Positions 4,596-28,557 of a DNA stretch of 64,000 nt are shown here, in pieces. The stretch spans positions 372,001-436,000 of the forward strand of contig CALSRJ010000001.1 in NCBI GenBank assembly GCA_943788725.1, given 5' to 3'. The position numbers were made by a program, and so were the translations under genes. This DNA comes from an uncultured Flavobacteriales bacterium. Lineage in GTDB: Bacteria; Bacteroidota; Bacteroidia; Flavobacteriales_G; Salibacteraceae. The notes under the pieces are model-generated. The model had not been told where the DNA came from, searched no databases, and saw only the letters and a program-made list of their open reading frames with translations. How positions within the stretch are numbered: the stretch's first letter is position 1; every line of letters starts with the position of its first letter.

Positions 4596-4598
4596 GTT

Positions 4599-5096: not shown

Positions 5097-5177
5097 TGCT
5101 CTTTTCTTTAATATGGTTGGCAAAAATAGAAGCTTGAATAGGACATGCCTGCCCAACCTTTGCTTTTAGTTAACAAT

Positions 5178-10136: not shown

Positions 10137-10850
10137 TTAGCCTTCTTTCTTATCCTCTTCTTTCGCTTCTTCAGCAGCAGGAGCTTCTTCTTTCGCTTCT
10201 TCAGCAGCAGGAGCTTCTTCCTTCGCTTCTTCAGCAGCAGGAGCTTCAGCAACTTCCTCAACTGCTTCTGCAACAGCCTCTACTACCTCTGCCACGTTCT
10301 CTTCTACAGCTTCGGCAACTTCGGCCACGGCTTCACCTGCACTTTCCACAGCATCAGCAGCAACTTCAGCCGCTTCTTCCACTACTTCTTCCACTTGTTG
10401 GGCAGCAGTCTGAGCAGCGATACGCGCCTCATTGGCCTCTTTCTCTGCGGCAAATCTTGCTTTGCGCTGATCTTCAGCTGACATAGCAAGGTGATCGCGT
10501 TTCTTTTGGATATTTCCTTCCTTCTCCTCTAGCCACTTATCGAATTTCGCCTTGGCTTGATCTTCTGTAAGTGCTCCTTTGGCAACACCCCTCAGGAGGT
10601 GGTCCATCATTAACACACCGCGATAAGACAAGATTGCTCTCGCTGTATCGCTCGGTTGAGCGCCTTTTTGAATCCAATCTACGCTCTTATCGAAGTCTAG
10701 ATCGATGGAAGCAGGATTGGTGTTAGGATTGTAGGTTCCGATCTTCTCGATGAAACGTCCGTCTCTCTTTGATCGTTGGTCAGCTACGACGATGTGGAAA
10801 AATGGTTTTCCTTTCTTACCGTGGCGCTGAAGTCTAATACGTGTTGACAT
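10137..10850 (-). CDS. rpsP: 30S ribosomal protein S16 with long acidic C-terminal extension
   Basis: 237 residues against about 80-90 for a minimal S16. The first ~85 are canonical: MSTRIRLQRHGKKGKPFFHI, VADQRSKRDGRFIEKIGTYN, then GAQPSDTARAILSYRGV. After a charged coiled-coil-like segment (KFDKWLEEKEGNIQKKRD) comes about 110 residues of Ala/Glu/Val-rich sequence ending in three 10-residue repeats (APAAEEAKEE type). Extended S16 proteins are common in Bacteroidota; the tail's role is unknown. A palindrome, GCCGATTAAATCGGC (10886-10900), lies in the leader and could form a hairpin in the mRNA. Confidence 0.93.
   Translation of the reverse strand: MSTRIRLQRHGKKGKPFFHIVVADQRSKRDGRFIEKIGTYNPNTNPASIDLDFDKSVDWIQKGAQPSDTARAILSYRGVLMMDHLLRGVAKGALTEDQAKAKFDKWLEEKEGNIQKKRDHLAMSAEDQRKARFAAEKEANEARIAAQTAAQQVEEVVEEAAEVAADAVESAGEAVAEVAEAVEENVAEVVEAVAEAVEEVAEAPAAEEAKEEAPAAEEAKEEAPAAEEAKEEDKKEG
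10161..10250 (-). repeat. Three tandem 30-bp repeats inside rpsP
   Basis: Three consecutive 30-base units (10161-10190, 10191-10220, 10221-10250) are nearly identical and encode the APAAEEAKEE repeats at the end of the S16 extension. In-frame length makes copy-number change harmless to the reading frame. Confidence 0.85.
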
Positions 10851-11120: not shown

Positions 11121-14100
11121 ATGGCACGACTTCTACGCTACGCTATCGCCGTTGTTCTATTCACATTTGGGTACACCATTAAAGGTGTGCTCGCACAGTG
11201 TGATTCTACATTTTCAAACTTCCAGATTGAGGAAACCTGGGAACAACAGACCTTCACACTGTGGAACAATGTGTCTGGGAATGACTACGACTGGATAATC
11301 AATTCAGGAGGCACTCCAACCAACAATTCTGGGCCATCTGGAGCCTATGCTGGCTCCTATTATATCTACACCGAGACATCCGGAACCGGAACGAACGAGG
11401 TAGGTATCATGGAATCAGAGTGCTTGGCATTTCCTACGAACAGCGCACCCTACCTTTCGTTTAGGTTGCACATGTACGAGAACGTTTCAGCAACCACGGC
11501 TCAATCAATGGGCTACTTGCAAGTTCAGGTAAACACGAATCCTAGCGGAAACAGCTGGTCTACACTGGCAACCTATAACACTAGTTCGAATTCTTGGTTA
11601 GAAAAGTTTGTCGACCTCTCTGCATATGCCGGATCTACCATAAAATTAAGGTTCAGAGCGGTTACAGGAACGCTGGGTGGGTTCAATCAATGGTATGCGT
11701 ACGGCGACAGGGCGTTGGACAACATTATCGTTTCAACAGGAGTCAACACAACGAACGTCAGCTGTTCTGGTGGATCCAATGGTTCAGCGACGGCCGTAGG
11801 TGCTTTTAATGGCGTTGGAAGCACGCTCTACACCTACCTGTGGAGTACAGGAGGAACTACTCAAACGATTACTGGCTTATCTGCGGGAAGTTATGCTTGT
11901 ACCATTACCGACACTAGTTCTAATTCTGAAGTAGTATCCTTCAGTATCACCGAACCAACATTACCAGCACCACAGAACCTTTCAGCAACTTCCACCTCCA
12001 TCTGTGAAACGGAAAATGAAGTGGTGACACTTAGCATTGATTTCGCCTCAGGAGATTACACATTTTCGACGCTGACAAGCGACTCTTCAGATCTAGGAAG
12101 TCAAAATACTGCGGGTACATCCCAAATCTTCAACATCTTCGATGCTCCTGCGTTTGCCACGGGCGACGCCACGCTCACCATGTATTATCGCGGTGATATG
12201 GAAGCCGCTGCTGAATATGTCACAACTTATTCGGAAAACGGGACATCGCTCGGTTCATCTACCCCCGCAAGCGGTCAATGCAGTGGCTCTTATAATTCCG
12301 TGAGCTTCTCAATTGATCCTGACTCAATCAACGACTGGGCCAGCGATGGAGTGATTAGCCTCCAAGGAATACCAACGGGTATGACGCGCTATTGCAATGC
12401 TGGTAGTGGGAATTATTATTCATGGAACGCTTATTATACTTTATCCTATCCGGTTGCTCAGAGCACCCCATACTGGTTTACCAACAATTGTGACAGCGTC
12501 CTTGCCAATGCGGTCGACTCAGGGTATACAATCGATGTGACTCCAACGACTACTACCACGTATTATGTTCGATTTTATGACACTACATGCGACCAATGGG
12601 GTACGTGCGACTCCGTTACCGTAACAGTTAATGGACCTCCTACCGTGGCGATTTCACCCACCTCCCCCTACTATTGCGGCACCCCGATTTCAATCACAGC
12701 CAGCGGAGGTTCGTTCTATTCCTGGTCTCCAGGTACAGGCCTGAACCAAACTTCAGGGCCAACGGTCATTGCAAGCCCATCTATAACCACCGCCTATGAG
12801 GTGGTTGGAATCGATGGAAATGGCTGTACCGACACTGCAGCGTTCAGCATAACAGTGACCACAGGACCGAGTGCCAGTGTTACAGGCACGAATGTGACTT
12901 GTAACGGCGGATCAAATGGAACGGCTTCGGTCACTGCATCAGGAGGTACAAGTTCTTATACCTATCTATGGTCCAATGGCAGCACATCTACTTCACTATC
13001 AGGTTTGTCTGCAGGAACTTACACCGTAACCGTTGACGATGGTACGACATGCCAAGCGGTTCAATCCATTGTTATCACAGAACCTACCGCCCTCAGCATC
13101 ACCATTGCCGGCAACAACATCGGTTGTTCTGGATTTTCAACTGGTAGCGCTTTTGCTTTTGTAACAGGTGGCACCGCCTCATACTCCTATTCTTGGAGCA
13201 ATGGCTCAACGAGCAACGTTGCCTTTGCTTTGGCCGCAGGAACCTACACCTTGACCGTCACCGACGCCAACAGCTGTACAGCGACACAATCGGTTACCAT
13301 AACACAGCCTTCCAGCGCCCTCAGCACAACTATTTCTTCCACTACAAATGTCAGTTGCAACGGAGGCAACGACGGATCTGCAACAGTAACCGCGAGTGGC
13401 GGAACCCCTACATATGGCTATTCTTGGAGTTCTGGAGCGACCTCAGCGACTGCCTCTAACCTGAGTGCAGGCACGTACATCGTTACCGTTACCGACGCGA
13501 ACGGCTGCGTTTCTGTAGCAGTAGCCAGCATTACCCAACCCGCCACCGCAGTGAGCGTTTCAATCGGAAGTCCTACGAACGTCACGTGCAACGGAGGCAG
13601 TAATGGCAGCGCAACGGCTTCCGGATCCGGCGGAACGGGCACCATTACCTACGCTTGGTCTTCAGGTTCGACCTCAGCTACCGCGGGTAGCTTAAGTGCT
13701 GGCACCTACACTGTAACCGCCACGGATGCCAACGGCTGTACCGATACGGAAAGCATTACCATTACAGAACCGACTGCCGTCACCGCTGGTTTATCGGTCA
13801 CCAATGTACTTTGCAATGGCGGTAGCAATGGTTCTATCACCGCTGCGGGATCTGGTGGCAACGGCGGAGCTTATAGCTACGTATGGAGTACTGGAGGAAC
13901 TTCTGGAACCGTTTCTGGATTGTCTGCAGGTACTTATACATTGACCATTACCGACAATGCTGGGTGTACCGGAACAGAAACTACCACCGTCACAGAACCG
14001 AGTGTACTGACTGCATCCACAACCTTAGGCAATAATGTAAGCTGTAACGGTGGCAACAATGGCTCTGCAACAGCATCTGCCACTGGTGGAACAACTGGAT

Positions 14101-17100
14101 ACGCTTATAACTGGTCCTCTGGATCGACAGCGGCAACTGCATCTTCTTTATCTGCCGGCACTTACACCGTGACCGTAACCGACGCAAATGGTTGCACCGA
14201 TACAGAGACCATCACCATCACAGAACCGGCCACGGCTGTATCTACCTCAATCGGATCTCCAACAAATGTCAGCTGTAACGGCGGCAACGACGGCGCAGCG
14301 ACCGCTTCTGGCGCAGGAGGAACGCCAGGATATTCCTACAGCTGGTCTTCGGGCGCAACTTCTGCAGCGGCATCTTCGCTTTCTGCAGGGACGTATACAG
14401 TTACAGTTACAGACGCTAATGGTTGTACAGACACCGAGACCGTAATCATCACCGAGCCCGCAACGGCGGTAACCGCTTCGATCTCGTTGGGCAGTAACGT
14501 CAGTTGTAATGGAGGCAGCAGCGGATCCGCAACTGCTTCTGCCACAGGCGGTACACCTGGTTACTCTTACACTTGGTCTTCTGGATCAAGCACCGCCTCT
14601 GCCTCTGGTCTTGCCGCTGGAACCTATACCGTCACGGTCACAGATGCCAATGGATGTACCGATACCGAAACGATAACCATTACTCAACCTGCTGCGCTTG
14701 TCGCTTCCACAACACTCGGCAGCAATGTCAGTTGCAACGGAGGAAATAACGGTACCGCCTCAGCATCCGCTTCAGGCGGAACACCTGGATATTCGTACGC
14801 TTGGTCTTCTGGATCTACTTCTGCTTCTGCGTCGAGTCTATCTGCAGGAACCTACACGGTTACGGTTACAGACGCACAGGGCTGTACCGATACGGAGACA
14901 ATCACCATTACGGAGCCTTCAGTGTTAGTAGCATCTACAACACTCGGCAGCAATGTTAGTTGCAACGGTGGCAACGATGGTTCTGCTACTGCATCTGCTT
15001 CGGGCGGAACGTCGGCATATTCTTACGCTTGGTCTTCTGGATCTAACGTGGCAACGGCCTCTTCCCTTTCGGCCGGCACCTATACCGTGACCATAACAGA
15101 CGCCAATGGATGCACCGACACGGAGACCATCACCATCACCGAGCCAGTAACTGCACTAACCGCTTCGATCGGATCGCCAACCAACGTAAGTTGTAATGGA
15201 GGTAACGACGGTTCGGCCACAGCCTCTGGTGCCGGTGGAACGTCTCCCTACTCTTACAGTTGGTCTTCTGGGTCAACGGCTGCAACGGCATCTAGCCTTT
15301 CCGCTGGAACCTACACGGTAACCGTTACCGATGCCAATGGTTGTACCGATACCGAGACTGTCACCATTACAGAGCCTGCAACAAGTGTCACAGCTTCTAT
15401 TGGATCTCCTACCAACGTAAGTTGTAATGGAGGCGGCAATGGGTCTGCCACAGCTTCCGGTTCTGGTGGAACACCGGGCTACTCCTTTAGCTGGTCCTCA
15501 GGTTCGACTACTGCAACAGCTTCATCCCTCTCAGCGGGAACCTACACGGTTACCGTGACCGATGCCAATGGATGTACCGATACTGAATCAGTTACCATTA
15601 CACAACCAACTGTTTTGATCGCTTCGACGGCGTTGGGTAGTAACGCGAGTTGCAACGGTGCTAACGATGGGTCCGCTTCTGCTTCTGCTGCTGGAGGTAC
15701 TCCAGGCTATTCCTACAACTGGTCTTCTGGATCTACTTCAACTTCTGCAACAGGTCTCTCCGCTGGCACATACACTGTAACGGTCACAGATGCCAATGGA
15801 TGTACCGATACGGAAACGATCACGATTACGGAACCTGCCATACTGGTAGCTTCTACAACACTCGGCAGCAATGTTAGTTGCAACGGTGGCAACGATGGTT
15901 CTGCTACTGCATCTGCTTCGGGCGGAACGTCGGCATATTCTTACGCTTGGTCTTCTGGATCTAACGTGGCAACGGCCTCTTCCCTTTCGGCCGGCACCTA
16001 TACCGTGACCATAACAGACGCCAATGGATGCACCGACACGGAGACCATCACCATCACCGAGCCAGTAACTGCACTAACCGCTTCGATCGGATCGCCAACC
16101 AACGTAAGTTGTAATGGAGGTAACGACGGTTCGGCCACAGCCTCTGGTGCCGGTGGAACGTCTCCCTACTCTTACAGTTGGTCTTCTGGGTCAACGGCTG
16201 CAACGGCATCTAGCCTTTCCGCTGGAACCTACACGGTAACCGTTACCGATGCCAATGGTTGTACCGATACCGAGACTGTCACCATTACAGAGCCTGCAAC
16301 AAGTGTCACAGCTTCTATTGGATCTCCTACCAACGTAAGTTGTAATGGAGGCGGCAATGGGTCTGCCACAGCTTCCGGTTCTGGTGGAACACCGGGCTAC
16401 TCCTTTAGCTGGTCCTCAGGTTCGACTACTGCAACAGCTTCATCCCTCTCAGCGGGAACCTACACGGTTACCGTGACCGATGCCAATGGATGTACCGATA
16501 CTGAATCAGTTACCATTACACAACCAACTGTTTTGATCGCTTCGACGGCGTTGGGTAGTAACGCGAGTTGCAACGGTGCTAACGATGGGTCCGCTTCTGC
16601 TTCTGCTGCTGGAGGTACTCCAGGCTATTCCTACAACTGGTCTTCTGGATCTACTTCAACTTCTGCAACAGGTCTCTCCGCTGGCACATACACTGTAACG
16701 GTCACAGATGCCAATGGATGTACCGATACGGAAACGATCACCATTACGGAGCCTGCAGTATTGGTAGCTTCTACAACACTCGGCAGCAATGTTAGTTGCA
16801 ACGGTGGCAACGATGGTTCTGCTACTGCATCTGCTTCGGGCGGAACGTCGGCATATTCTTACGCTTGGTCTTCTGGATCTAACGTGGCAACGGCCTCTTC
16901 CCTTTCGGCCGGCACCTATACCGTGACCATAACAGACGCCAATGGATGCACCGACACGGAGACCATCACCATCACCGAGCCAGTAACTGCACTAACCGCT
17001 TCGATCGGATCGCCAACCAACGTAAGTTGTAATGGAGGTAACGACGGTTCGGCCACAGCCTCTGGTGCCGGTGGAACGTCTCCCTACTCTTACAGTTGGT

Positions 17101-20100
17101 CTTCTGGGTCAACGGCTGCAACGGCATCTAGCCTTTCCGCTGGAACCTACACGGTGACCGTTACCGATGCCAATGGTTGTACCGATACCGAGAATGTCAC
17201 CATTACAGAGCCTGCAACCGCTGTTTCGGCTTCTATCACCCTAGTGAGTAACGTCAGTTGCAATGGTGGAAATGATGGTTCTGCAACAGCCTCAGGTAGC
17301 GGAGGAACAGCTGGTTATACCTACAGCTGGTCATCCGGCGCAAGTACTGCGACGGCCTCCTCTCTTTCAGCGGGAACCCATACGGTTACTGTGACCGACG
17401 CAAACGGATGTACCGATACGGAGACAATCACCATTACGGAGCCTGCAGTGTTAGTAGCATCTACAACACTCGGCAGCAATGTTAGTTGCAACGGTGGCAG
17501 CGATGGTTCCGCCTCTGCTTCTGCTGCTGGAGGTACTTCACCTTACGGCTTCAGTTGGTCTTCCGGTTCGACAACATCATCGGCAACTAGTCTTTCAGCA
17601 GGAACTTACACGGTGACGGTTACGGATGCGAACGGTTGCAGCGACACAGAAACCATCACCATTACCGAGCCTGCAGTATTGGTGGCCTCGACTACACTTG
17701 GAAACAACGTCAGCTGCAACGGTGGAAACGATGGCTCAGCTACCGCTTCTGCGGTTGGCGGGACCTCACCTTACTCATACAGTTGGACTTCTGGTTCGAC
17801 CTCAGCAAGTGCTTCTTCCCTTTCCGCTGGAACCTATACGGTAACAGTAACAGATGCGAATGGATGTACTGATACAGAAACTATCACCATAACGGAGCCA
17901 ACACTTCTTGTCGCTGCCATAGATTCTTCATCGAATATTTCGTGCTTCGGGTTGTTTGATGGGGTAGCCCACAGCAGTGCCTCTGGAGGTACGTCTCCTT
18001 ACAGCTTCGCTTGGAGCTCAGGCGCCGCCACTTCTACTGCTTCTGGCCTTGGCGCAGGTACCTTCACAGTCACTGTGACCGATGCTAACGGTTGTACAGA
18101 TACGGAAAGCGTTACCATCTCCCAACCGACCCTTTTGGTCGCTTCGGCTAGTGTAGACAATGATGTGTCTTGCAATGGTGGAAACGATGGACAAGCCACC
18201 GCCTCTGGGTCGGGCGGAACTCCTGGATATAGCTATTCATGGTCTTCCGGAGCTGCCACTGCCGTCGCTTCTAGCCTTTCCGCAGGTAACTACACCGTGA
18301 CGATAACCGATCTCAATGGTTGCAGTGATACCGCAAGTGTGACAATATCAGAGCCAACGCTTCTTGTCGCCTCGACTTCTCTTGGCAACAATGTAGACTG
18401 CAATGGTGGCAACAATGGCGCTGCGACCGCCTCTGCGGCTGGGGGAACGTCACCTTATTCCTATAGCTGGTCTTCAGGGTCAACTTCGGTTTCTGCTACA
18501 GGTCTTTCCGCTGGAACCTATACGGTAACCATCACCGATGCCAATGGATGTAGTGATACGAGTAACATTACGATAACTGAACCTACGCTTCTTGTTTCGA
18601 CCGGATCAGGCGTAAATGTCTCCTGTAATGGTACGGCAGATGGACAAGCGTCGGTTGCTGCCTCTGGTGGCACTTCACCTTATACCTATCTCTGGTCTAC
18701 TGGATCAACGCTGAGCTCAGCAACGAATTTGGGCCCTGGGACTTATGGCGTGACTGTGACCGACGACAACGGATGCACGGCAACCGCCTCCATTAGCATT
18801 ACCCAACCTTCCGTGTTGATTGCAAGCATTTCTCTTGATAGCAATGTGAGCTGCAACGGCGGCAACGACGGGTCTGCAACGGCATCAGCTGTCGGCGGTA
18901 CATCTGGATACACATACGCATGGTCATCTGGTGCATCAAGCTCGACAGCTTCCTCCCTTGCCTCGGGCACCTATACCGTGACAGTAACAGATGCAAATGG
19001 ATGCACGGATACGGAAACGATTACCATCTCTGAACCAACGCTACTTTCTACCACAACCACTGTGCTCAACAACGTGAGTTGTTACGGAGGATTCAATGGA
19101 AATGCAAGTATTAGCGCTTCGGGTGCCACGTCTCCGCACAGCTACGCTTGGTCATCGGGAGCAACAACGACGAATGCTACAAACCTTACTGCAGGAACAT
19201 ACTATGTGACTGTAACTGACGCCATGGGCTGTGAGGCCATCGACAGCGTATCGATCACCGAGCCTGACACATTGATCGCAACAGCGAGTATGGTAAATGG
19301 GGTGAGTTGCAATGGCGGCAATGATGGGTCTGTTACAGTATCGACTACAGGCGGTACAACTGCCTATGGCATTCTGTGGTCCAATGGCTCTACGTCAACC
19401 ACTGTAACAGGATTATCGGCAGGAACGTACACGGTAACCGTTACAGACGCAAATGGATGCGTTGATACTTCTTCAGCCGAAGTCACTCAACCGGATAGCT
19501 TGGTAGCGGGCATTACGCTAGGTAGTAATGTAAGCTGCAACGGGGGGAACGACGGTTCTGTTACTGCATCAGGAACTGGAGGTGCTTCCCCGTATGCATT
19601 CTTATGGTCTACTTCATCTACAAGTGCGTCAATCAGTGGATTGACAGCCGGCACGTACACAGTAACCATTACCGACGCTAACAACTGTACGAGCATCGCT
19701 TCGATTTCGATCACTGAACCCGCTACTCTGGCAGCCAGTGCAGTGGCTGTGAACAACGTGCTTTGCAGTGGACAGAGTTCGGGAACAGTCGCAGGATCTG
19801 CTTCAGGCGGTACGAGTCCGTTTTCATTCCTATGGAGCACTTCGAATACTACTGATACGGTTTCAGGTCTCGTGGCTGGAACTTACACTTTGACGATTAC
19901 CGATGCCAATGGGTGCACCGATACGGCATCGGCGACGATCATCGAGCCATCTGCCGTAAGTGCTCAAGCACTTTGGATCATGGACGCCGCTTGCAATGGC
20001 AGCTCCACTGGATCTGCCTATGCTGTGGCCGCTGGAGGAACCACCCCCTACTCATACGCTTGGGTAACGGGAAGTACCAATGATTCGATATTCAACCTCT

Positions 20101-23100
20101 CAGCCGGCACCTATACGGTTACGATTACGGATGCCAATGGCTGTTCCGACTCTGATACAGTCTCCATTTTGGAACCTGCTGCACTTGGATTGAACTTTGC
20201 GTTGGCAGATCCTTTGTGTAATGGATCAAGCGACGGTTCGATTACTTCAATCGTTACCGGCGGAACAACCCCATACACTTACTCTTGGTCGACTTCTGCT
20301 TCCTCTGCTGGACTTTCTGGACTTAGCGCTGGTTCGTATACGCTGACTGTCACCGATGCCAATGGATGTACAACGGCACTCAACGGTCAATTGAACAATC
20401 CGACTTCTATTGTCGCGAGCATTACTTCTCAAAATAATTCCTGCTTCGGTGATTCCACAGGATTTGCCGTTGCGAACGGGTCTGGAGGAGCAGGTAATTT
20501 CAGTTTCACTTGGAGCACTGGATCCACGAACGACACTCTTGCGTCTGCAGTGGCAGGAACTTACACCGTTACCGTCACTGACAGCAATGGTTGCTTCGCC
20601 ACGGCCTCCGTCACCTTGACGCAGCCTACTGCTCTGACAGCTTCGATTTCATTCACTGACAGCGTCGCCTGCTTCGGTGATTCTTCGGGATTGGCAGTTG
20701 CAGCCGCTACCGGTGGCACATCACCATACTCTTATAGCTGGCCAGCCTCTTGGACAAGTAGTAATGACTCCCTATTGAATGTACCTGTGGGAGGATATAC
20801 TGTTACTATCACGGACGACAATGGCTGTACTGATACCGCGGTTGCCGTGATTGATCAATATCCGGCCTTGGTTCTGATGATTGATTCTACCCAAGACGTG
20901 ACTTGTTTCAACGGGATGGACGGATATGCATCTGTCCTAGCTTCTGGCGGTGCGGGTGGATATACTTACGCTTGGCCAAACGGTTCAACATCTGCGATCA
21001 ATGATTCATTGAGCGGAGGCGTACACTGTGTGACAGTTACAGACGCAAATGGATGCTCTGATACCGCTTGTGTGGATCTATCAGAGTTGAATCCTTTACC
21101 GCCCGTAAATATTGGGAATGATACCGCAATCTGTGACACATTGTTCACCCTGGATGCCGGAAGTGCCGTTGGATATAGCTGGAGTACGGGTGCGACATCA
21201 CAGACCATCCAAATAGACTCAACAGACGATTACTCCGTTACCATCACCAACGCAATCGGCTGTCAAAACAGCGATACCATTTCGGTGACCTTCAATCCAT
21301 TGATTTCTTTCGATGTTGAAACGGAGAGTACAAGTTGTGGAGGGTCCACAGGTACTGCACTAGTAACCAACCTTGTTGGTGGTGGTGGTTATACCCTTCT
21401 TTGGAGCAGCGGTCAGCTGAACACTCTGAATGTAAGTTCACTGACTTATGGCGCCTACAGCGTAACCGTAAACGACGCCAATGGATGTTCGGCAGAGCAA
21501 TCATTCTTCATCTATGACGATACCGATCTTTCATTTGACTTGTTTGCAACCGACGCAAGTTGCTACGGTCTGTCAGATGGCAGCGCTTGGGCCGCAGTCA
21601 CTTCAGGAACTTCGCCTTTTTCGTTCAACTGGTCGAATGGTGCGGTGACCGATTCAATTTTGAATATCACTGCCAACACATATGCTCTTACGGTTACAGA
21701 TAGTGCTGGATGCATTCTGGAAGATTCGATTGCGGTCAATCAACCTGATAACATTCTACTTTCTGTAGTGAGTACTGGCGCGACCTGCGGAGACTCTAAT
21801 GGTACGGCTGCTGTGAATGTGTTTCCAAATGCGACCTATTCATTTGCATGGAATGATCCATTTACACAAACCACAGACACAGCCTCTAACTTACCTGCTG
21901 GCACGTATCAAGTCATTGTAACGGCTGCAAATGGATGTCAGGATTCAGCGTTTGCCATTGTGAGCAATGACGGTGCGCCAGTGCTTGCATTGACTGCCAT
22001 GAACGAATACTGTGAAGGAAGTGGTGACGGTTATACAGCGGTTTCCGCGACGAGCCTCTCGCCTCTTACGTATCTATGGAGTGATGCTTTAGGGCAAACT
22101 ACCGATACCGCCTTCAGCATAGGGTCTGGCTTGTATTTTGTCTCTGTGACAGACACGAGTGGATGCATCGCAATCGACAGTATTTCAGTGGGTGCCGATG
22201 GTTCAAACCCGGTCTTTACGCTTGGCAATGACACAAGCGTTTGCAGCAGCTCCATCACCTTGTATGCTCCAATGGGAATGTCTTCGTACGCCTGGAGTAC
22301 AGGCTCGACCAGTGATTCTATTCTTGTTACTGCAACGGGACAATACTGGGTGAATGTGACGAATGCGTCTGGTTGCTCAAGTACAGACTCCATCCAGATG
22401 GACCTTTACAATGCGATTACGTATACCTCTGCCGTCAACAATTCTAGTTGTTCGCAGAATACAGGCGCCATTGACATTACAGTTACTGCTGGCAATGGCG
22501 GCTATACCTTCCTATGGAACACGGGTGACACAACTGCACTCATAAGCGGGCTCGGCAGTGGAACTTACGCCGTAACCATTGCGGACAGCGCGGGATGCTC
22601 CATAGAAGCCTCCTTCAACGTGGACAACATCAACGCTCCTGCAGTGTCGGTTGACGTTACTGACGCGAATTGTAACGCTGAAGCGAGTGGATCTGCCACA
22701 GCTACGGTAACCAATGGAACCTCTCCATTCATTTATGCTTGGAGTAATGGAGGAATCGGAACCAATCAAAGCGGGTTGTTGGCAGGTAATTACGACTTGA
22801 CCGTGACGGACGACAGTGGCTGTGTAGTCACTGTTCCTTTCAACGTTCTTGAACCAACCGCAATCACCATATCCATCGCAGGTATTCAACCTGATTGTGG
22901 AGACTCAAACGGAAGTGCATTGGCTTCGGTGTCGAATACCCAAGGACCAGTAGCAAGCTACCTATGGAATGATTCATCTGCAACCCCCTTGCCTTTCGTG
23001 AACAACCTCCCTGCGGGATATTACACGGTATCTATTACAGATTCTGCAGGATGCTCGGCCTCTGAGAGTATCGCCTTGAGTAATTTGGGCGCCGCGTCAC

Positions 23101-24044
23101 TGGCCATTTACAGCACGACGAATAATTGTTCCAATGAGAACATTGCGTATGCTTATGTGGATGCCTTTGGAAGTGGTCCGTTCACTTATGCTTGGAACGA
23201 TGATCTGTCACAGCAAAATGACACGGCCTTTAGCCTTTACAACGGCACGTATGCCATATCTGTAACGGATACGAACGGTTGCATTGCAGTAGGTGATGTT
23301 GAGGTGACATCCATATTTACAGCACCTTCCATCAGCTTGGGCGGTGATGTTACGAGCTGCATAGGCAATGAAGTAATACTCACCCCGGGAAACGGCTTCG
23401 TCACTTACCTATGGAACACCGGAAATACCTCACCATCCATTACGGTAACAGCGGGGCAATCCTATTCAGTAACCGTAAGTAACGCAGTCGGCTGTGCAGC
23501 GGCCGACACCGCTTTAGTAGCCTTCGTCGCACCTCCAGTAGTAGCCCTCGGAAATGACACGATTGTGTGTGTAGACGACTTCAGCCCAGTAGTGACTTTG
23601 GACGCTGGTGAAGGATTCAACAATTATTTGTGGTCTACCAGTGACACCACACAATCGATTGATGTATTCACTGGAGGCCTCTACAAGGTGAGCGTGAGTG
23701 ATGTGCCTGGATGCATCGGCACCGATCAAGTAATCGTAGCTTATGACACATGTATCAACGTAACAACGGCGGATTTGGGCAATGGATCTAACGCTTCTCT
23801 ACGCATCTACCCGAATCCGAACAGAGGAAGGTTCATGGTTGAAATGGAGCGTTTTGAAGCTGGGAACTACGATGTTCAAGTGCTGAACGCCGCAGGTCAA
23901 CATGTGCTCATTACAACGGTTCGTACCGGCAGCAGTGGCGTCACCATCGCCGAACTTGACCTCTCAGAGGCGCCGCGTGGTATCTACTTGATGACGATAA
24001 AAGGATTAAATATAAGAATAGACCAGCGAGTGATCATTCAGTAA
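11121..24044 (+). CDS. Giant SprB-repeat cell-surface adhesin with type IX secretion sorting domain
   Basis: 4,307 residues. Signal peptide 1-25 (cleavage before Q26); a MAM-like domain about 27-205; one SprB repeat; an unclassified domain about 282-480; about 45 SprB-type repeats (each roughly CNGGNDGSA ... SWSSGST ... LSAGTYTVTVTDANGC, two cysteines per unit), diverging toward the C-terminus and mixed with Ig-like modules starting LGNDT; and a type A C-terminal sorting domain from about 4227 (LRIYPNPNRGRF to IDQRVIIQ). SprB of Flavobacterium johnsoniae is a mobile gliding adhesin exported by the type IX system; a surface adhesin role is inferred here. No Lys or Arg was found between residues 484 and 4189. 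No PorP/SprF partner gene is adjacent. The gene ends at a strong terminator. Confidence 0.9.
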   Translation: MARLLRYAIAVVLFTFGYTIKGVLAQCDSTFSNFQIEETWEQQTFTLWNNVSGNDYDWIINSGGTPTNNSGPSGAYAGSYYIYTETSGTGTNEVGIMESECLAFPTNSAPYLSFRLHMYENVSATTAQSMGYLQVQVNTNPSGNSWSTLATYNTSSNSWLEKFVDLSAYAGSTIKLRFRAVTGTLGGFNQWYAYGDRALDNIIVSTGVNTTNVSCSGGSNGSATAVGAFNGVGSTLYTYLWSTGGTTQTITGLSAGSYACTITDTSSNSEVVSFSITEPTLPAPQNLSATSTSICETENEVVTLSIDFASGDYTFSTLTSDSSDLGSQNTAGTSQIFNIFDAPAFATGDATLTMYYRGDMEAAAEYVTTYSENGTSLGSSTPASGQCSGSYNSVSFSIDPDSINDWASDGVISLQGIPTGMTRYCNAGSGNYYSWNAYYTLSYPVAQSTPYWFTNNCDSVLANAVDSGYTIDVTPTTTTTYYVRFYDTTCDQWGTCDSVTVTVNGPPTVAISPTSPYYCGTPISITASGGSFYSWSPGTGLNQTSGPTVIASPSITTAYEVVGIDGNGCTDTAAFSITVTTGPSASVTGTNVTCNGGSNGTASVTASGGTSSYTYLWSNGSTSTSLSGLSAGTYTVTVDDGTTCQAVQSIVITEPTALSITIAGNNIGCSGFSTGSAFAFVTGGTASYSYSWSNGSTSNVAFALAAGTYTLTVTDANSCTATQSVTITQPSSALSTTISSTTNVSCNGGNDGSATVTASGGTPTYGYSWSSGATSATASNLSAGTYIVTVTDANGCVSVAVASITQPATAVSVSIGSPTNVTCNGGSNGSATASGSGGTGTITYAWSSGSTSATAGSLSAGTYTVTATDANGCTDTESITITEPTAVTAGLSVTNVLCNGGSNGSITAAGSGGNGGAYSYVWSTGGTSGTVSGLSAGTYTLTITDNAGCTGTETTTVTEPSVLTASTTLGNNVSCNGGNNGSATASATGGTTGYAYNWSSGSTAATASSLSAGTYTVTVTDANGCTDTETITITEPATAVSTSIGSPTNVSCNGGNDGAATASGAGGTPGYSYSWSSGATSAAASSLSAGTYTVTVTDANGCTDTETVIITEPATAVTASISLGSNVSCNGGSSGSATASATGGTPGYSYTWSSGSSTASASGLAAGTYTVTVTDANGCTDTETITITQPAALVASTTLGSNVSCNGGNNGTASASASGGTPGYSYAWSSGSTSASASSLSAGTYTVTVTDAQGCTDTETITITEPSVLVASTTLGSNVSCNGGNDGSATASASGGTSAYSYAWSSGSNVATASSLSAGTYTVTITDANGCTDTETITITEPVTALTASIGSPTNVSCNGGNDGSATASGAGGTSPYSYSWSSGSTAATASSLSAGTYTVTVTDANGCTDTETVTITEPATSVTASIGSPTNVSCNGGGNGSATASGSGGTPGYSFSWSSGSTTATASSLSAGTYTVTVTDANGCTDTESVTITQPTVLIASTALGSNASCNGANDGSASASAAGGTPGYSYNWSSGSTSTSATGLSAGTYTVTVTDANGCTDTETITITEPAILVASTTLGSNVSCNGGNDGSATASASGGTSAYSYAWSSGSNVATASSLSAGTYTVTITDANGCTDTETITITEPVTALTASIGSPTNVSCNGGNDGSATASGAGGTSPYSYSWSSGSTAATASSLSAGTYTVTVTDANGCTDTETVTITEPATSVTASIGSPTNVSCNGGGNGSATASGSGGTPGYSFSWSSGSTTATASSLSAGTYTVTVTDANGCTDTESVTITQPTVLIASTALGSNASCNGANDGSASASAAGGTPGYSYNWSSGSTSTSATGLSAGTYTVTVTDANGCTDTETITITEPAVLVASTTLGSNVSCNGGNDGSATASASGGTSAYSYAWSSGSNVATASSLSAGTYTVTITDANGCTDTETITITEPVTALTASIGSPTNVSCNGGNDGSATASGAGGTSPYSYSWSSGSTAATASSLSAGTYTVTVTDANGCTDTENVTITEPATAVSASITLVSNVSCNGGNDGSATASGSGGTAGYTYSWSSGASTATASSLSAGTHTVTVTDANGCTDTETITITEPAVLVASTTLGSNVSCNGGSDGSASASAAGGTSPYGFSWSSGSTTSSATSLSAGTYTVTVTDANGCSDTETITITEPAVLVASTTLGNNVSCNGGNDGSATASAVGGTSPYSYSWTSGSTSASASSLSAGTYTVTVTDANGCTDTETITITEPTLLVAAIDSSSNISCFGLFDGVAHSSASGGTSPYSFAWSSGAATSTASGLGAGTFTVTVTDANGCTDTESVTISQPTLLVASASVDNDVSCNGGNDGQATASGSGGTPGYSYSWSSGAATAVASSLSAGNYTVTITDLNGCSDTASVTISEPTLLVASTSLGNNVDCNGGNNGAATASAAGGTSPYSYSWSSGSTSVSATGLSAGTYTVTITDANGCSDTSNITITEPTLLVSTGSGVNVSCNGTADGQASVAASGGTSPYTYLWSTGSTLSSATNLGPGTYGVTVTDDNGCTATASISITQPSVLIASISLDSNVSCNGGNDGSATASAVGGTSGYTYAWSSGASSSTASSLASGTYTVTVTDANGCTDTETITISEPTLLSTTTTVLNNVSCYGGFNGNASISASGATSPHSYAWSSGATTTNATNLTAGTYYVTVTDAMGCEAIDSVSITEPDTLIATASMVNGVSCNGGNDGSVTVSTTGGTTAYGILWSNGSTSTTVTGLSAGTYTVTVTDANGCVDTSSAEVTQPDSLVAGITLGSNVSCNGGNDGSVTASGTGGASPYAFLWSTSSTSASISGLTAGTYTVTITDANNCTSIASISITEPATLAASAVAVNNVLCSGQSSGTVAGSASGGTSPFSFLWSTSNTTDTVSGLVAGTYTLTITDANGCTDTASATIIEPSAVSAQALWIMDAACNGSSTGSAYAVAAGGTTPYSYAWVTGSTNDSIFNLSAGTYTVTITDANGCSDSDTVSILEPAALGLNFALADPLCNGSSDGSITSIVTGGTTPYTYSWSTSASSAGLSGLSAGSYTLTVTDANGCTTALNGQLNNPTSIVASITSQNNSCFGDSTGFAVANGSGGAGNFSFTWSTGSTNDTLASAVAGTYTVTVTDSNGCFATASVTLTQPTALTASISFTDSVACFGDSSGLAVAAATGGTSPYSYSWPASWTSSNDSLLNVPVGGYTVTITDDNGCTDTAVAVIDQYPALVLMIDSTQDVTCFNGMDGYASVLASGGAGGYTYAWPNGSTSAINDSLSGGVHCVTVTDANGCSDTACVDLSELNPLPPVNIGNDTAICDTLFTLDAGSAVGYSWSTGATSQTIQIDSTDDYSVTITNAIGCQNSDTISVTFNPLISFDVETESTSCGGSTGTALVTNLVGGGGYTLLWSSGQLNTLNVSSLTYGAYSVTVNDANGCSAEQSFFIYDDTDLSFDLFATDASCYGLSDGSAWAAVTSGTSPFSFNWSNGAVTDSILNITANTYALTVTDSAGCILEDSIAVNQPDNILLSVVSTGATCGDSNGTAAVNVFPNATYSFAWNDPFTQTTDTASNLPAGTYQVIVTAANGCQDSAFAIVSNDGAPVLALTAMNEYCEGSGDGYTAVSATSLSPLTYLWSDALGQTTDTAFSIGSGLYFVSVTDTSGCIAIDSISVGADGSNPVFTLGNDTSVCSSSITLYAPMGMSSYAWSTGSTSDSILVTATGQYWVNVTNASGCSSTDSIQMDLYNAITYTSAVNNSSCSQNTGAIDITVTAGNGGYTFLWNTGDTTALISGLGSGTYAVTIADSAGCSIEASFNVDNINAPAVSVDVTDANCNAEASGSATATVTNGTSPFIYAWSNGGIGTNQSGLLAGNYDLTVTDDSGCVVTVPFNVLEPTAITISIAGIQPDCGDSNGSALASVSNTQGPVASYLWNDSSATPLPFVNNLPAGYYTVSITDSAGCSASESIALSNLGAASLAIYSTTNNCSNENIAYAYVDAFGSGPFTYAWNDDLSQQNDTAFSLYNGTYAISVTDTNGCIAVGDVEVTSIFTAPSISLGGDVTSCIGNEVILTPGNGFVTYLWNTGNTSPSITVTAGQSYSVTVSNAVGCAAADTALVAFVAPPVVALGNDTIVCVDDFSPVVTLDAGEGFNNYLWSTSDTTQSIDVFTGGLYKVSVSDVPGCIGTDQVIVAYDTCINVTTADLGNGSNASLRIYPNPNRGRFMVEMERFEAGNYDVQVLNAAGQHVLITTVRTGSSGVTIAELDLSEAPRGIYLMTIKGLNIRIDQRVIIQ
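14935..17215 (+). repeat. 918-bp tandem repeat, about 2.5 near-identical copies
   Basis: Copies begin at 14935, 15853 and 16771, each 918 bases (306 codons, four SprB units) apart. The first two copies looked identical by eye except for about the last 25 bases; the third is near-identical for about 440 bases, then diverges. Other SprB units in the gene share protein sequence but differ at many silent sites, so this block was duplicated very recently or was misassembled. Confidence 0.9.
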
Positions 24045-24062
24045 GAGAACGACGAACATATG

Positions 24063-24090
24063 AAAAGGCTGGATCGACATCCAGCCTTTT
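24063..24090. terminator. Bidirectional terminator between the adhesin gene and tamB
   Basis: A perfect 12-bp stem (AAAAGGCTGGAT / ATCCAGCCTTTT) with a CGAC loop. It has a T-run on each strand and lies between two convergent genes, so it can serve both. The tamB stop codon overlaps its last base. Confidence 0.88.
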
Positions 24091-27000
24091 CATTTGGTAA
24101 TATCTCGTCGCTTGTCTTTCTTAAAGAAGTCTTTTAAAAAGGAGTCGAATTCCCTGCGATAGAAAACACCCACACCCTGCGTATAAGGAGATTGGTTCAA
24201 GTTGGTTGGGTTATAGTTGTTCGCCTCATTGTATACACGCGCCCGGAGCGACTTATTGATCCTGTATTCAATATTGAATTCACCTGCCACGTTGTTCGCA
24301 TCCTGAGAAGATCCGTTGTTGCCTTGCACGCTTCCGTTCACCTCGACCAAGACTTTATCGTTGAACAGTTCTGTTGAGAGGTTCACTTCCGTCTGATTGG
24401 CAGCATTTTCATCTCCTGGACGATAGTTGACACCGAAATCAATGTTATCGAAGTATTGCGACACCCAGTTGCTGAACTGATTGCTCATCATTTCATAGGT
24501 GGTAGTTTGACCTGCAACGCCCAACGCAGAAACCCCGCTTCCTTGCGCAAAGAAGTGATTCGTCAAAAGCAGTGCAAACGCCTGTTCATTCATATCCTGC
24601 TTGCTGGTCGTTCTTACATCCAAGAGTTGATTGGCAATGTCCGTTTCAGGTAGACTTGGGAGGTCAACGTCAAAAGAAATATCTGGCTCAAGGAGTTTTC
24701 CTTCCATTTTCAATTTGACATCTACGGGCATCCTTCGCTTGTACACCTCTGAAGTATCTCCCACTGAAGCGGTCAAGTTGATGGGAGCGGCCCTGAGGTT
24801 ATAATTTGCGGTGAGGTTAACATTCGCATCCAAAGGCGATCCTGACCATGAAATTTTACTTCCAGGAAGCACTGTAAATCGTTTATTGACAACATTTTGA
24901 AGTGTGAACAAGTAATCACCACCCGTCATGGTATAATCTCCATACATGTTGAACGTACCCCGGTTATCGATCCGCATAAGCATGTCTCCATTTCCACGCA
25001 CCTTGATGATGTCACCAATCTTCTCATCAAAGATGATTTGGATTTCTGCATCGTCATTTACGGCCAATTGAAAATCAAGGTTGAGACTGTTTCTCTCTTC
25101 CTCTAGTGTAACCGCTTCTGTGATGCGTCGCTTGTTTTTCTCTTTGGGCTGAACGAAACGGATATAATCGATCGATCCTATTTCGCCGCCATCATCCAGA
25201 GGAATGGAAAGCTTGGTGTCTTTGTTCGTGAATGCATCCACGGAAATCTCTGTAAATCCAGGTACACCACTAACGGTAACATCTCCAGTAATATTTGCGA
25301 CTCCATAATAGGCCTCGTTGTCTGCAATCGTGGTATTCAACGCCATGAAATTCTCGGCGCTCAGGAAGATTTCGTAGTTTAGGTTTCTGAACTGCTCATG
25401 GTAGACAGAAGCATTCAGTCTAGCGACGCTCCCCTTCGGATCAAGTACCTTGATCCAGTCAGCCGTAATCATATCATCATCAATACTAACAGTCGCTTCT
25501 GGCACCTTATAGTAGGTTTTCAAATAATCAACCTGCACAGCGCCATCCTTCAGCTTCATAGCGCCGACCAGTTTAGGCGCGGAGATGTTGCCGGAGACGC
25601 TTACCGAGCCGTTGATCACACCTTCCAATTGCTGGGCGTAATTGCTCACAAAGGGTTCAATGATCGAAGCGCGAAACTGATTCAGTGCCACCTCTAAGTC
25701 CAATTGATCCTGATCGCGCAAGGGATAGTACTCCCCCATCACACGAACATTCCGTTGTTCCTTGTAGCTCAGCTCCAGGTTGAGTTCAACCGCCTTTCGC
25801 TCTGAGCTGTATTTGGAAGTTCCGGTGATGCTCCCAATGTCAAAATCGTCAACGATGAGCGAGTCAATGGTGAGGTCTGTTTCCGCCACAATCGATTCCT
25901 GAAGCTTATACACGTTGACCTCTCCATTGAAATAGCCATGAACGTCGTTACTTACAAGACCAAATCGACTGATGTATGCCATGTTGAAATGACGAACATC
26001 AAAATAGAGGTCAGCATCCTTGCGTGCAGAGACTTCACCATTGCAGGTAATTTGTCCTAATCCGCTTTGAATGTCTAGGTTTTGGATTAAAAGTCGCGTG
26101 CTGTCTGAACGCAGAATTGCTTGCTTTTCAGATATCCATGTAGCATCAGCGATGCGCGCAAAGAACTGATTCAACTCTATATTCATGGGGAAGTCTTCTG
26201 AGCGATACGCGAGCAAGCTGACCGCCCCACTGTCAGATCGAGAAGTATTATTATCCCAATAGATATCACTTTCCAAGGTGTCGCTGTAAAGCAATGAACG
26301 AGAGCTTAGGTTCTCAAGGAAGAAACTATTGGTTAAAGCCATAGCACTGGCATTCACATCAAACCGCAGCCCTTTTCCACCGGGAGACACAACAGCGGTC
26401 TGGTTGCTCATCGCCAAATCTCCATACCTCCAAGATATCGTGTCTAAATGCACATCCATGAAGGCATCTCGCGTTCGCAGGTTACCAGTGATGTGCACTT
26501 GTCCACCCAAGTGAAAGTCGGGTGAAATGAACTTCTCCAATTGTCGACTATCGTAAACCAAAAGGTCGTAATCCACTACCTGGGTTGTGTCTACCTTGCC
26601 CAATTCTATTCCTTCAACTGCAGCAGGAGCATACTCCTGCGCAATGAGCAAAAAGGCATATGGTAAGTCGAAAAGACTTGTCTTTCCAGCGAAACGTGCG
26701 CGTCCAACATCGCTCATCAATTCTATGCGATGACCTTCGTTTAAAAGCTCATCCAGCAATACAACACTGTCCAGTTTAATCTTCTGATCTTTTGAGGAAT
26801 ACTCAAAATCACGCACCGTTAGAGCACCGTGAAGGTTGCTTTTGTTCAGGCCTTGCATATTCAAGGTCATGCGTCCCGAAACCACGCCGAACGTATCCTC
26901 AGGAACGAGGCCGAGTGGACCTAGTTTTAATTGAGTGACCCTGCTGACGCAATTCACAATCGGCACCTCAGGTTTCGCATCGATTTTCCCTACGAAATCA

Positions 27001-28526
27001 AACGCCGCATTGGGGTCTGCCATGGAAAGGCTTCCTTCAAACACTTGTTTCAGAACAGACCCGTCTACGGTAATATTTTGGAAGGAGTACCCATTGAAAT
27101 CAAAGCGATCTATTCGTCCTTCTGCTTGGATTTTCATTGTTTTAGCATCCACGCCCACTCCTGAGGCCTTTATATCCAGTGCGGTCAATCCAAACAGAGG
27201 GTCATTGACCAGTTTCCTCAAGTCAAACGACTTGGTCTTTAGTTCGCCAGAATATGCGAGCTGATCTCCTCCCGTCTTGATGTTCATATCGGCCTCCATA
27301 TTTCCTAGGGCCGTAGTGAGGTGTCCGAACGTTACAAAATCACTGATGAAGCCCATGAACTTCCCTTGAAACCCTATCGTACCCAGACGGTCTAGCTCTT
27401 CAGGCAGCGAATACATCTGAAAACCGCTCGGAGTGGGGATTCGAAGACGCTCGATGTCGGATGCACGCACTTCTAGGTGATCGATGTCTGCGTTGATGTT
27501 GAATTCATCCATGTTCGGAAGTCCCCTTAACCGAACCTTTCCGGAGAGAAAGCCGTGGTCAGCAAAGTACAAGGAGTCGATTTCACCTCGCAAGTCGCTC
27601 AAGGTTCCCGATGCCCTTCCCTTGAATTGCATGGGCGTGAGCATATTTCGGACACTCTCACTGAAAAAACCTACATCGTAATAATGGATGCGTGCCTTAG
27701 ACAGGGATGCCTCGAGGCGCACATCGGTGAAAAAGGATTTAAAGGATTGGAAATCATCAAAATACATGGAGTAACTTCCTTCCAAAACCGAGAGGTTGGC
27801 TACCACTTGTAAGTCCTTACACTCAACCCTGTCAGTCGCGAAGACAACATTGGAGTTAAGGCATCTCACACGAAACCCGCTTTGCTCCGCGAGGTGCAAT
27901 CCATGTATTGAAGCCATGATTGAATCTCCAATTTCTATGTCGCTGATTCGCCCAGAAAGCGACCGAACGGCGAGGTGATTAAAGTCTACCCTATTTCCAC
28001 CGAGAGGTTCGACCCTATTATCGTTGAAATCAAAGCGCAAGCCATCCAACGTAAGATTATCGCATGCGATTCCAAACTTCACCCGATGGGTATCGGGCGC
28101 ATCCGTCTTAAAAACATCGATCAAGAATTGCATGTTGGTTACCGAGTCGCCTTCTGGTATGTATAGGTTGTAGTAGGGATGCACCAATGTCACTTCATCC
28201 AGCGCCAAGAAGTTAGACTCCCTGTCGAATCGAGTTAGGTCGACCTTCAGGGCTTCCACATAAAGGAGCGTATCGTGCTGCTGATCTCGAATCAGCAATT
28301 CATCCAAACGCAGTGTTCGAAACGGTTCGATGTAGACTCCTCCCAATCGGATTTCAGTGTGCAATGCTTGACTGCCGAAATGAACCGCCTTTTGCACAAC
28401 AAAGTTTTGGATAGACGGAATGAAAAGCAGCAGGGCTGCTACGATCGGAATCATCAGCAACGTTGCGATGATCATCGCCAATAGCCTCAGTACCTTTTTG
28501 GTAGTTTTGTGTCGCTGTTTATTCAC
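24090..28526 (-). CDS. tamB: TamB/AsmA-like translocation and assembly protein
   Basis: About 1,478 residues. One N-terminal membrane anchor (VLRLLAMIIATLLMIPIVAA), then the family's IPSIQNFVVQKAVHF start, a very long beta-rich region of repeated short strands, and a C-terminal DUF490/TamB domain (for example LPSLPETDIANQLLDVRTTS and the final FYRREFDSF). TamB-type proteins span the periplasm as a hydrophobic groove, moving phospholipids or helping assemble outer-membrane proteins. The frame is open to 28643 and overlaps tsaD; the GTG at 28526 (VNKQRHKTTKKVLRLL) avoids overlap, with ATG 28568 as alternative. It is divergent from tsaD. No TamA/BamA gene is adjacent. Confidence 0.85.
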   Translation of the reverse strand: MNKQRHKTTKKVLRLLAMIIATLLMIPIVAALLLFIPSIQNFVVQKAVHFGSQALHTEIRLGGVYIEPFRTLRLDELLIRDQQHDTLLYVEALKVDLTRFDRESNFLALDEVTLVHPYYNLYIPEGDSVTNMQFLIDVFKTDAPDTHRVKFGIACDNLTLDGLRFDFNDNRVEPLGGNRVDFNHLAVRSLSGRISDIEIGDSIMASIHGLHLAEQSGFRVRCLNSNVVFATDRVECKDLQVVANLSVLEGSYSMYFDDFQSFKSFFTDVRLEASLSKARIHYYDVGFFSESVRNMLTPMQFKGRASGTLSDLRGEIDSLYFADHGFLSGKVRLRGLPNMDEFNINADIDHLEVRASDIERLRIPTPSGFQMYSLPEELDRLGTIGFQGKFMGFISDFVTFGHLTTALGNMEADMNIKTGGDQLAYSGELKTKSFDLRKLVNDPLFGLTALDIKASGVGVDAKTMKIQAEGRIDRFDFNGYSFQNITVDGSVLKQVFEGSLSMADPNAAFDFVGKIDAKPEVPIVNCVSRVTQLKLGPLGLVPEDTFGVVSGRMTLNMQGLNKSNLHGALTVRDFEYSSKDQKIKLDSVVLLDELLNEGHRIELMSDVGRARFAGKTSLFDLPYAFLLIAQEYAPAAVEGIELGKVDTTQVVDYDLLVYDSRQLEKFISPDFHLGGQVHITGNLRTRDAFMDVHLDTISWRYGDLAMSNQTAVVSPGGKGLRFDVNASAMALTNSFFLENLSSRSLLYSDTLESDIYWDNNTSRSDSGAVSLLAYRSEDFPMNIELNQFFARIADATWISEKQAILRSDSTRLLIQNLDIQSGLGQITCNGEVSARKDADLYFDVRHFNMAYISRFGLVSNDVHGYFNGEVNVYKLQESIVAETDLTIDSLIVDDFDIGSITGTSKYSSERKAVELNLELSYKEQRNVRVMGEYYPLRDQDQLDLEVALNQFRASIIEPFVSNYAQQLEGVINGSVSVSGNISAPKLVGAMKLKDGAVQVDYLKTYYKVPEATVSIDDDMITADWIKVLDPKGSVARLNASVYHEQFRNLNYEIFLSAENFMALNTTIADNEAYYGVANITGDVTVSGVPGFTEISVDAFTNKDTKLSIPLDDGGEIGSIDYIRFVQPKEKNKRRITEAVTLEEERNSLNLDFQLAVNDDAEIQIIFDEKIGDIIKVRGNGDMLMRIDNRGTFNMYGDYTMTGGDYLFTLQNVVNKRFTVLPGSKISWSGSPLDANVNLTANYNLRAAPINLTASVGDTSEVYKRRMPVDVKLKMEGKLLEPDISFDVDLPSLPETDIANQLLDVRTTSKQDMNEQAFALLLTNHFFAQGSGVSALGVAGQTTTYEMMSNQFSNWVSQYFDNIDFGVNYRPGDENAANQTEVNLSTELFNDKVLVEVNGSVQGNNGSSQDANNVAGEFNIEYRINKSLRARVYNEANNYNPTNLNQSPYTQGVGVFYRREFDSFLKDFFKKDKRRDITK

Positions 28527-28557
28527 CTTAGTCAAGTCATCAAAATTACGCGAAAGC

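Follow-up and report, generated by a model that had tools for sequence, protein, structure and literature searches.

When one genome carries tandem copies that are nearly identical, it is tempting to read them as the product of a recent expansion, and the repeat array of a giant surface adhesin gene in the window (the whole stretch of 64,000 nucleotides analysed, from an uncultured Flavobacteriales bacterium) raises the question of whether such an expansion took place here. Comparison with one sister genome shows here that the same picture is possible without a change in length, so the identity of copies is not by itself enough to date an amplification. We consider it probable, at roughly 0.7, that the array holds an old higher-order repeat of four SprB domains (306 aa, 918 bp) which was recently homogenised by exchange between neighbouring blocks, with its length kept.

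The adhesin gene and its near-identical blocks

Domain searches of the adhesin (Table 1) matched the SprB repeat PF13573 at 991.7 bits in 39 stretches, together with PF18962 and the type A sorting domain TIGR04183 (138.6 bits, cut-off 23), and from this sorting domain the protein is presumably exported by the T9SS. The type B sorting domain TIGR04131 had no match at the adhesin gene, and the 37 type B domains above cut-off genome-wide all lie elsewhere. SprA is present in the genome, and the best GldJ match scored 378.8, below the curated cut-off of 458.2. None of the six Pfam families matched is, to our knowledge, an adhesive domain that binds a ligand. Structure prediction for five units gave an all-beta model (mean pLDDT 87.3, pTM 0.48).

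Table 1. Features of the adhesin locus, with positions in the window.
Feature	Position	Strand	Evidence
Ribosomal protein S16 with long tail, left neighbour; same in sister species	10137..10850	-	
Giant SprB-repeat surface adhesin gene, 4307 aa	11121..24044	+	Pfam/TIGRFAM domain matches
48-unit repeat array, most units 75-77 aa, later ones diverged	12900..23800 (right end approximate)	+	
Block A, approximately units 9-12; units 11-12 likely the overwritten side	14934..15851	+	
Five A/B differences at right end of A; counterpart in B 16742-16761	15824..15843	+	
Block B, approximately units 13-16; matches A exactly over 890 bp	15852..16769	+	
Partial block C (unit 17 plus part of 18); sequence identical to the beginning of A and B	16770..17155	+	
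T9SS type A sorting domain, residues 4229-4307 of adhesin	23805..24041	+	TIGR04183
TamB-family gene, right neighbour; anchor for ortholog finding	24090..28643	-	

Self-comparison of the window at fixed shifts delimited 2.42 copies of a four-domain 918-bp block at 14934-17155 (2222 bp), with unit lengths of 77, 77, 76 and 76 aa (306 aa). At a shift of 918, positions 14934-15823 were exactly identical to the next copy (890 bp), the five mismatches followed, and 15844-16237 then equalled 16762-17155 with no mismatch (394 bp); at a shift of 1836, 14934-15319 equalled 16770-17155, again with no mismatch (386 bp). Beyond 17155 there were two single mismatches before identity was lost at about 17219. 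At the protein level, a single residue (I/V) differs between blocks A and B.

The identity extends to silent positions, with 0 of 214 fourfold sites differing between A and B and 0 of 93 between A and C, against a median fourfold difference of 0.68 across 208 equal-length pairs of 76- or 77-aa units located by motif, the near-identical pairs counted in. Where residues match, A and B agreed in 294 of 294 codons, compared with 992 of 2406 among equal-length unit pairs from residues 975-2275 at lags that are not multiples of four; with synonymous codons drawn at the gene's own usage, a match over 295 codons has a log10 P of about -158. Because none of the 214 fourfold sites differs, the near-identity of the blocks is judged to be recent. 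These results bear out the preliminary description, which had reported two and a half near-identical copies lacking the silent-site differences of the other repeats and had placed them at 14935-17215, the left end being right to one base and the right end to a few bases.

Comparison with the sister species and the origin of block identity

The ortholog in the sister species is also 4307 aa long and aligned globally to the window adhesin with no gap, at 90.2% amino acid and 82.1% nucleotide identity, with 48 units at the same coordinates. Its own four-unit blocks differ from one another by 19-27%, and it contains no exact internal repeat of at least 40 bp. Since the sister has both the same length and its own diverged block copies, the four-unit repeat is, on this comparison of one genome per species, old, and the net length change since the split of the two species is, by the same alignment, zero; the tract therefore looks like existing blocks that have been overwritten. 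The recent event appears to be homogenisation with no net change of length, through gene conversion or balanced unequal exchange. A scan of genome contigs for the adhesin matched the sister and one distant locus (the window's own species was possibly absent).

In the lineage that led to this genome, neighbouring blocks probably underwent recent homologous exchange in the 918-bp register that overwrote at least one of them, which would leave the copies nearly base-identical and the gene length unchanged. The likely route would be gene conversion of the RecA type, with blocks pairing out of alignment either within a single chromosome or between sister chromosomes, and at least two tracts would be needed, of about 890 bp (A-B) and about 390 bp (B-C). 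We infer this gene conversion route, as we do the enzymes involved and any consequence for how the fibre functions. At 19-27% divergence, homologous exchange is usually rare; with the sister's blocks this far apart, an unseen, more similar intermediate must therefore be assumed.

In a tree built from units 5-20 of the two species (W, window; G, sister), the flanking units paired across species, namely W5-G5 (0.98), W6-G6 (0.99), W7-G7 (0.97), W8-G8 (0.95) and W20-G20 (0.99), and the units of the tract grouped within the window as W9/13/17, W10/14, W11/15 and W12/16. W12/W16 clustered with G16 (0.90) and W11/W15 with G15 (0.78), which makes block B the more probable source for these units. Among informative sites in units 10-12, 82 favoured the sister's second block and 52 the first, a ratio weaker than those of untouched blocks for their own counterpart over the other (133:64 and 98:37), and the direction of donation is only partly clear. 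The first unit of the block pointed in the opposite direction (18:14), and W10/14/18 clustered with G18 (0.86) and not with G14. Additionally, W19 clustered with W8/G8 (0.85), and an exact 54-bp match has a spacing of 2526 bp, or 11 units; both suggest that exchange is not always at a lag of four.

The alternative that survives best is turnover by unequal crossing-over, in which one block was gained and another lost so that the array came back to 48 units and the identity reflects duplication. Such a gain and loss could leave the same mosaic, and nearly the same sequence, as conversion, and the unit counts of other species do differ by multiples of four; it demands, however, one or more events beyond those that conversion needs, together with an exact return to 48 units, and the flanking units 5-8 and 20 retain their orthologous partners. 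We therefore regard turnover as unlikely. Recent net amplification by 306 residues, as put forward in the preliminary description, would account for the near-identity of the copies and for the steps of four in which array length varies in other species. The sister, however, matches the window adhesin in length and in the coordinates of its units, and every block has a diverged counterpart there, so that the ancestor would have to be one block shorter and the sister would have to have gained a block independently at the same place, which makes this reading highly improbable. What stands of the earlier proposal is the recent identity and the four-unit, 306-residue register; the amplification itself does not. 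An assembly artefact, whether a collapse of near-identical copies or a false expansion, is just as improbable, for although the 890-bp exact repeats exceed short-read length and the tract is known from the assembly alone, the assembly has only 7 contigs and the one that contains the window is longer than 1 Mb, five bases still distinguish the copies, and the sister has the same number of units although its copies, being diverged, would not be expected to collapse. A collapse of additional identical copies is conceivable.

Array length and the four-unit period across orthologs

If homogenisation proceeds in the 918-bp register, an occasional crossover in the same pairing register would add or remove whole four-domain blocks, and differences between orthologs would therefore come in steps of four. 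The unit counts of seven orthologs were 48, 48, 44, 44, 44, 36 and 52, every one divisible by four; intact genes gave 48, 48, 44, 44 and 36, and two frame-broken genes gave 52 and 44. Three further orthologs (G010, G013 and G018) end at contig ends and are outside this count. In a shift scan for block repeats, a match at 950 bp in G009 was left uncounted, a spacing that is not a multiple of three. Between G012 (44 units) and G011 (36 units), which belong to one genus, there were two gaps of exactly four units each in an overlapping part of the array. The four-unit gaps between the window and G012 (units 5, 6, 8 and 9) and between the window and G030 (units 6, 27, 30 and 32) were scattered and formed no single block. 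By these counts, array length does change over longer times.

Unit similarity in the window was highest at lag 4 (p=0.003, with 0 of 300 local shuffles reaching the value), and the sister also had its best lag at 4, weakly (p=0.037, one of 37 tests). The intact genes of G011 and G030 had the same best lag at values that were not significant (p=0.22 and 0.21), and other adhesins of the family again show similarity at lag 4. Outside the family, no significant lag was found in the testable genes (7 tested, including L122 of G001, itself a member of the family); in 8 further frames the runs were too short for the test. The adhesin adjoins tamB in 9 of 13 genomes of the same genus (G000, G010-G015, G018 and G021) and also in G030. 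In G017 there were fewer than three unit matches per frame in either tamB flank examined, the tamB matches of G016 and G019 were truncated, and G020 had no tamB match; among 15 fetched regions, mostly covering one side of tamB, only G021 had at least three unit matches in a frame.

A further proposal is that adhesin length is quantised, with only whole four-domain blocks gained or lost, four SprB domains forming a single period, structural or mechanical, of the fibre, in-register conversion keeping the blocks alike and selection holding their count; we consider this proposal doubtful. If it is true that length goes in steps of four domains, the fibre would be expected to have a structural period. 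Misfolding between adjacent domains, which would keep neighbours different, was considered as a reason for the number four and found insufficient alone, as neighbouring units inside the block reach up to 86% amino acid identity (units at 1281 and 1358). The locus lends itself to testing whether bacterial adhesins exchange sequence in blocks of several domains.

Relation to known repeat proteins

SprB is a gliding adhesin that travels over the cell surface and powers gliding. SprB itself carries SprB-repeat domains (PF13573), and the adhesin resembles it in these domains, in its very large size and in its presumed T9SS export. The available parts of two papers describe SprB of Flavobacterium johnsoniae as a type B substrate carried by SprF (PMC12635249, PMC9143113). 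The adhesin differs in its type A sorting domain, and no PorP/SprF protein was present among the near neighbours tested at this locus (ABC transporter, S16, TamB and TsaD). Because of its type A domain the adhesin is, judged by sequence features, a SprB-repeat protein yet not SprB itself, and the earlier label "SprB-like" is apt for the repeat and misleading for the sorting domain. The best solved match of a five-unit piece of the repeat, by sequence (E 1.8e-8) as well as by fold, was the grappling hook protein GhpA of Aureispira (PDB 9flp, 9flw). This likeness of sequence and fold concerns the repeat alone, and identity in the fold search was just 22-24%.

Within the accessible portion of the open-licence PMC literature, we found no report of a four-domain higher-order repeat or of gene conversion in SprB-repeat genes. 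In the text available, the terms "bacteroid" and "sprb" are absent from the main text of PMC8201768, and "bacteroid" and "gene conversion" from PMC9704523.

Nebulin, a vertebrate muscle protein, has exons, whereas in the bacterial adhesin studied here the unit consists of four SprB domains and has apparently been refreshed by homogenisation. Multi-domain duplication units are described for repeat proteins, nebulin in sevens being an example, in the available part of Bjorklund et al. (2006, PMC1553488); as in those proteins, several domains move together here, and the same kind of lag analysis (autocorrelation of domain similarity) applies. Periscope Proteins, in the accessible text of Whelan et al. 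(2021, PMC8201768) and of a review (PMC9704523), are long surface proteins with tandem folded domains and highly identical DNA, features also seen here, and this identity is regarded as a driver of recombination within the gene and of changes in its length. Their repeat number differs from one strain to another, and their stalk carries a ligand-binding domain outward at the N-terminus. Between species, with one genome for each, the adhesin array spans 36-52 units. In contrast to Periscope Proteins, it is the four-domain blocks that are identical here, adjacent units differing more, and the recent event appears to have left the length unchanged relative to the sister.

Age of the blocks and of their identity

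Repeat boundaries were taken from self-comparison of the window at fixed shifts of 918 and 1836 bp. At the shift of 918 bp, 14934-15823 is exactly identical to its counterpart (890 bp), five mismatches all fall within 15824-15843, and a second exact stretch covers 15844-16237 (394 bp); at 1836 bp the match is exact over 386 bp. The repeated stretch totals 2222 bp, or 2.42 copies, and no fourfold site differs between blocks A and B (0/214) or between A and partial copy C (0/93), against a median difference of 0.68 for 208 equal-length pairs of motif-detected units of 76 or 77 aa. The four-unit block is thus confirmed to occur in two and a half nearly identical copies, as reported in the preliminary description. 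Where A and B share a residue the codon is always identical (294/294), whereas equal-length unit pairs at other lags in the same region agree at 992 of 2406 codons, so protein constraint does not account for the A/B identity.

The ortholog in the sister species (G014) lies between the same S16 and TamB-family genes, encodes a protein of the same length (4307 aa) with coinciding repeat-unit coordinates, and aligns without gaps at 90.2% amino acid and 82.1% nucleotide identity. Its blocks likewise comprise 77, 77, 76, and 76 aa, with units differing by 19-27% between blocks, and no exact internal repeat of at least 40 bp was found in this adhesin. Across the repeated stretch, 257 of 469 fourfold sites differ between the species. 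In a tree of units 5-20 from both, units 5, 6, 7, 8, and 20 each pair with their sister ortholog (support 0.95-0.99) and the tract units pair among themselves within the window; unit 18 groups with units 10 and 14 at a weak support of 0.44. Taken together, these sequence comparisons indicate a block structure that predates the split of the two species, with an equal number of units in both, while the identity of A, B, and C arose well after it. Recent amplification, proposed earlier to add 306 residues per step, is not borne out, given the sister protein's equal length, matching unit coordinates, and own diverged blocks.

A gap-free alignment is in itself nothing unusual here, since the neighboring ABC transporter shows no gap either and TamB differs only by five residues at its first end, where the start is uncertain and the sister's frame is interrupted by a stop. 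S16, unlike the adhesin, varies in length (237 aa in the window, 303 aa in the sister), with three gaps in its tail.

Features of the window and of related loci
Feature	Location	Strand	Description
S16 gene	window 10137-10850	-	long low-complexity tail; 30-bp tandem repeat at 10156-10247
Giant SprB-repeat adhesin	window 11121-24044	+	4307 aa
Block A	window 14934-15851		about units 9-12
Block B	window 15852-16769		about units 13-16
Partial copy C	window 16770-17155		unit 17 and part of unit 18
Unit 19	window 17259-17486
TamB-family gene	window 24090-28643	-
Second SprB-repeat adhesin (L051)	window's genome, C3, ~54-65 kb		924-bp four-unit block; copies 96.7% identical over 2162 bp
L053	window's genome, C3 240001-250000		1122-bp stretch (4415-5536) again 2611 bp onward, 96% identity
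Four open frames	window's genome, C3 552-560 kb		828-856 aa; type B sorting domains; spacing ~2.5 kb
SprB-repeat gene (L052)	window's genome, C2, ~405-417.5 kb		4194 aa; type B sorting domain
G021 ortholog (L110)	G021, C3 214001-233900		915-bp blocks, 98% identity over 2182 bp
Four-unit spacing, this locus	window; orthologs of G012, G011 (~200 bp only), G015, G021
Four-unit spacing, other genes	second adhesin (924 bp); G004; G020; G010 (~210-280 bp)

Proposed exchange between neighboring blocks

The best reading is that the identity stems from homologous exchange between neighboring blocks, resolved as conversion with occasional crossovers. Neighboring blocks would pair in the 918-bp register; resolution as conversion would renew identity and leave length unchanged, and an occasional crossover in the same register would add or remove whole blocks. 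We infer conversion as the route; gain of one block balanced by loss of another would yield a nearly indistinguishable sequence. An assembly error is improbable, since the unit count matches the sister's and the sister copies are so diverged that they should not collapse. Further identical copies in the window could nevertheless have collapsed.

Of the two full blocks, B is the likelier donor for units 11-12 of block A. Over units 10-12 the second G014 block is favored by 82 informative sites and the first by 52, and in the tree window units 12 and 16 join sister unit 16 (0.90) and units 11 and 15 join sister unit 15 (0.78). The site counts give a weaker signal than untouched blocks do (own versus other, 133:64 and 98:37). 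Informative sites of unit 9/13/17 run 18:14 in the opposite sense, and units 10, 14, and 18 join sister unit 18 (0.86), so the history is a mosaic. At least two tracts are required, A-B and B-C. In the same tree unit 19 falls with unit 8 (0.85) and not with its sister ortholog, suggesting that units 11 positions apart exchanged sequence at an earlier time, off the lag of four.

Four-unit register in orthologs and other adhesins

Counted from a first array unit set by comparison of N-terminal layouts, intact genes hold 48 (window), 48 (G014), 44 (G012), 44 (G030, another genus), and 36 units (G011). Two orthologs are broken by frame shifts and were counted from merged domain positions: G021 has 52 units, and G015 reaches 44 only when five units are inferred, one of them terminal and four placed in wide gaps. 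All seven counts are divisible by four. A minimum of three length changes is needed, so the chance of this is about 1 in 64 with every step free, in a test devised after the pattern was seen. Between G012 and G011 the alignment has two gaps, each of exactly four units, in an overlapping part of the array. In the more distant pairs, no single four-unit gap separates the window from G012 (missing units placed at 5, 6, 8, and 9) or from G030 (6, 27, 30, and 32). The frame shifts of L110 stem from sequencing error or from decay.

Near-identical stretches were sought in 56 loci, some of which overlap: the window together with L041-L095. Among the matches listed, basic spacing is about four units in at least nine genes, one or two units in genes of G001, G009, G030, and G005, and three units in one G018 gene. 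A lag test gave p<0.05, uncorrected for 37 tests, in 14 of 37 genes, with the best lag four in nine, eight in one (G012, whose profile peaks at four), and 2, 5, 5, and 10 in the others. Four of the ten genes with a lag of four or eight are orthologs at the window adhesin locus and so are not independent. The lag was not significant in the intact G011 and G030 orthologs, nor in any of seven testable genes of a second batch (six from two other families of the order, one from G001). The four-unit register is thus common within the family and not universal. The likely G014 ortholog of the second adhesin is truncated within its array by the start of contig C40. The L053 pair is a possible recent duplication.

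Relation to known repeat proteins

Pfam assigns the adhesin a Por_Secre_tail domain and 39 stretches of SprB repeats, and NCBIfam identifies its end as a T9SS sorting domain of type A (TIGR04183). A predicted five-unit model is all-beta (mean pLDDT 87.3, pTM 0.48). Among solved structures, the best matches by sequence (E 1.8e-8) and by fold come from fragments of GhpA, the grappling hook protein of Aureispira, taken as relatedness of the repeat fold and no more. F. johnsoniae SprB is described as a type B substrate whose carrier is SprF (PMC12635249, PMC9143113); the adhesin therefore has SprB's repeat but not its sorting domain, and the L052 protein is the better SprB candidate. The four open frames on C3 are possibly tandem paralogs.

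Periscope Proteins are described as surface proteins with tandem domains so alike that recombination between them is presumed to alter length (PMC8201768); in the adhesin the near-identity is between four-domain blocks and appears to be renewed without length change. Duplication of several domains at once is likewise already reported, as in nebulin (PMC1553488), which repeats in sevens where the adhesin repeats in fours. This T9SS adhesin locus unites Periscope-type identity with multi-domain duplication, and provides an example of identity renewed at constant length.
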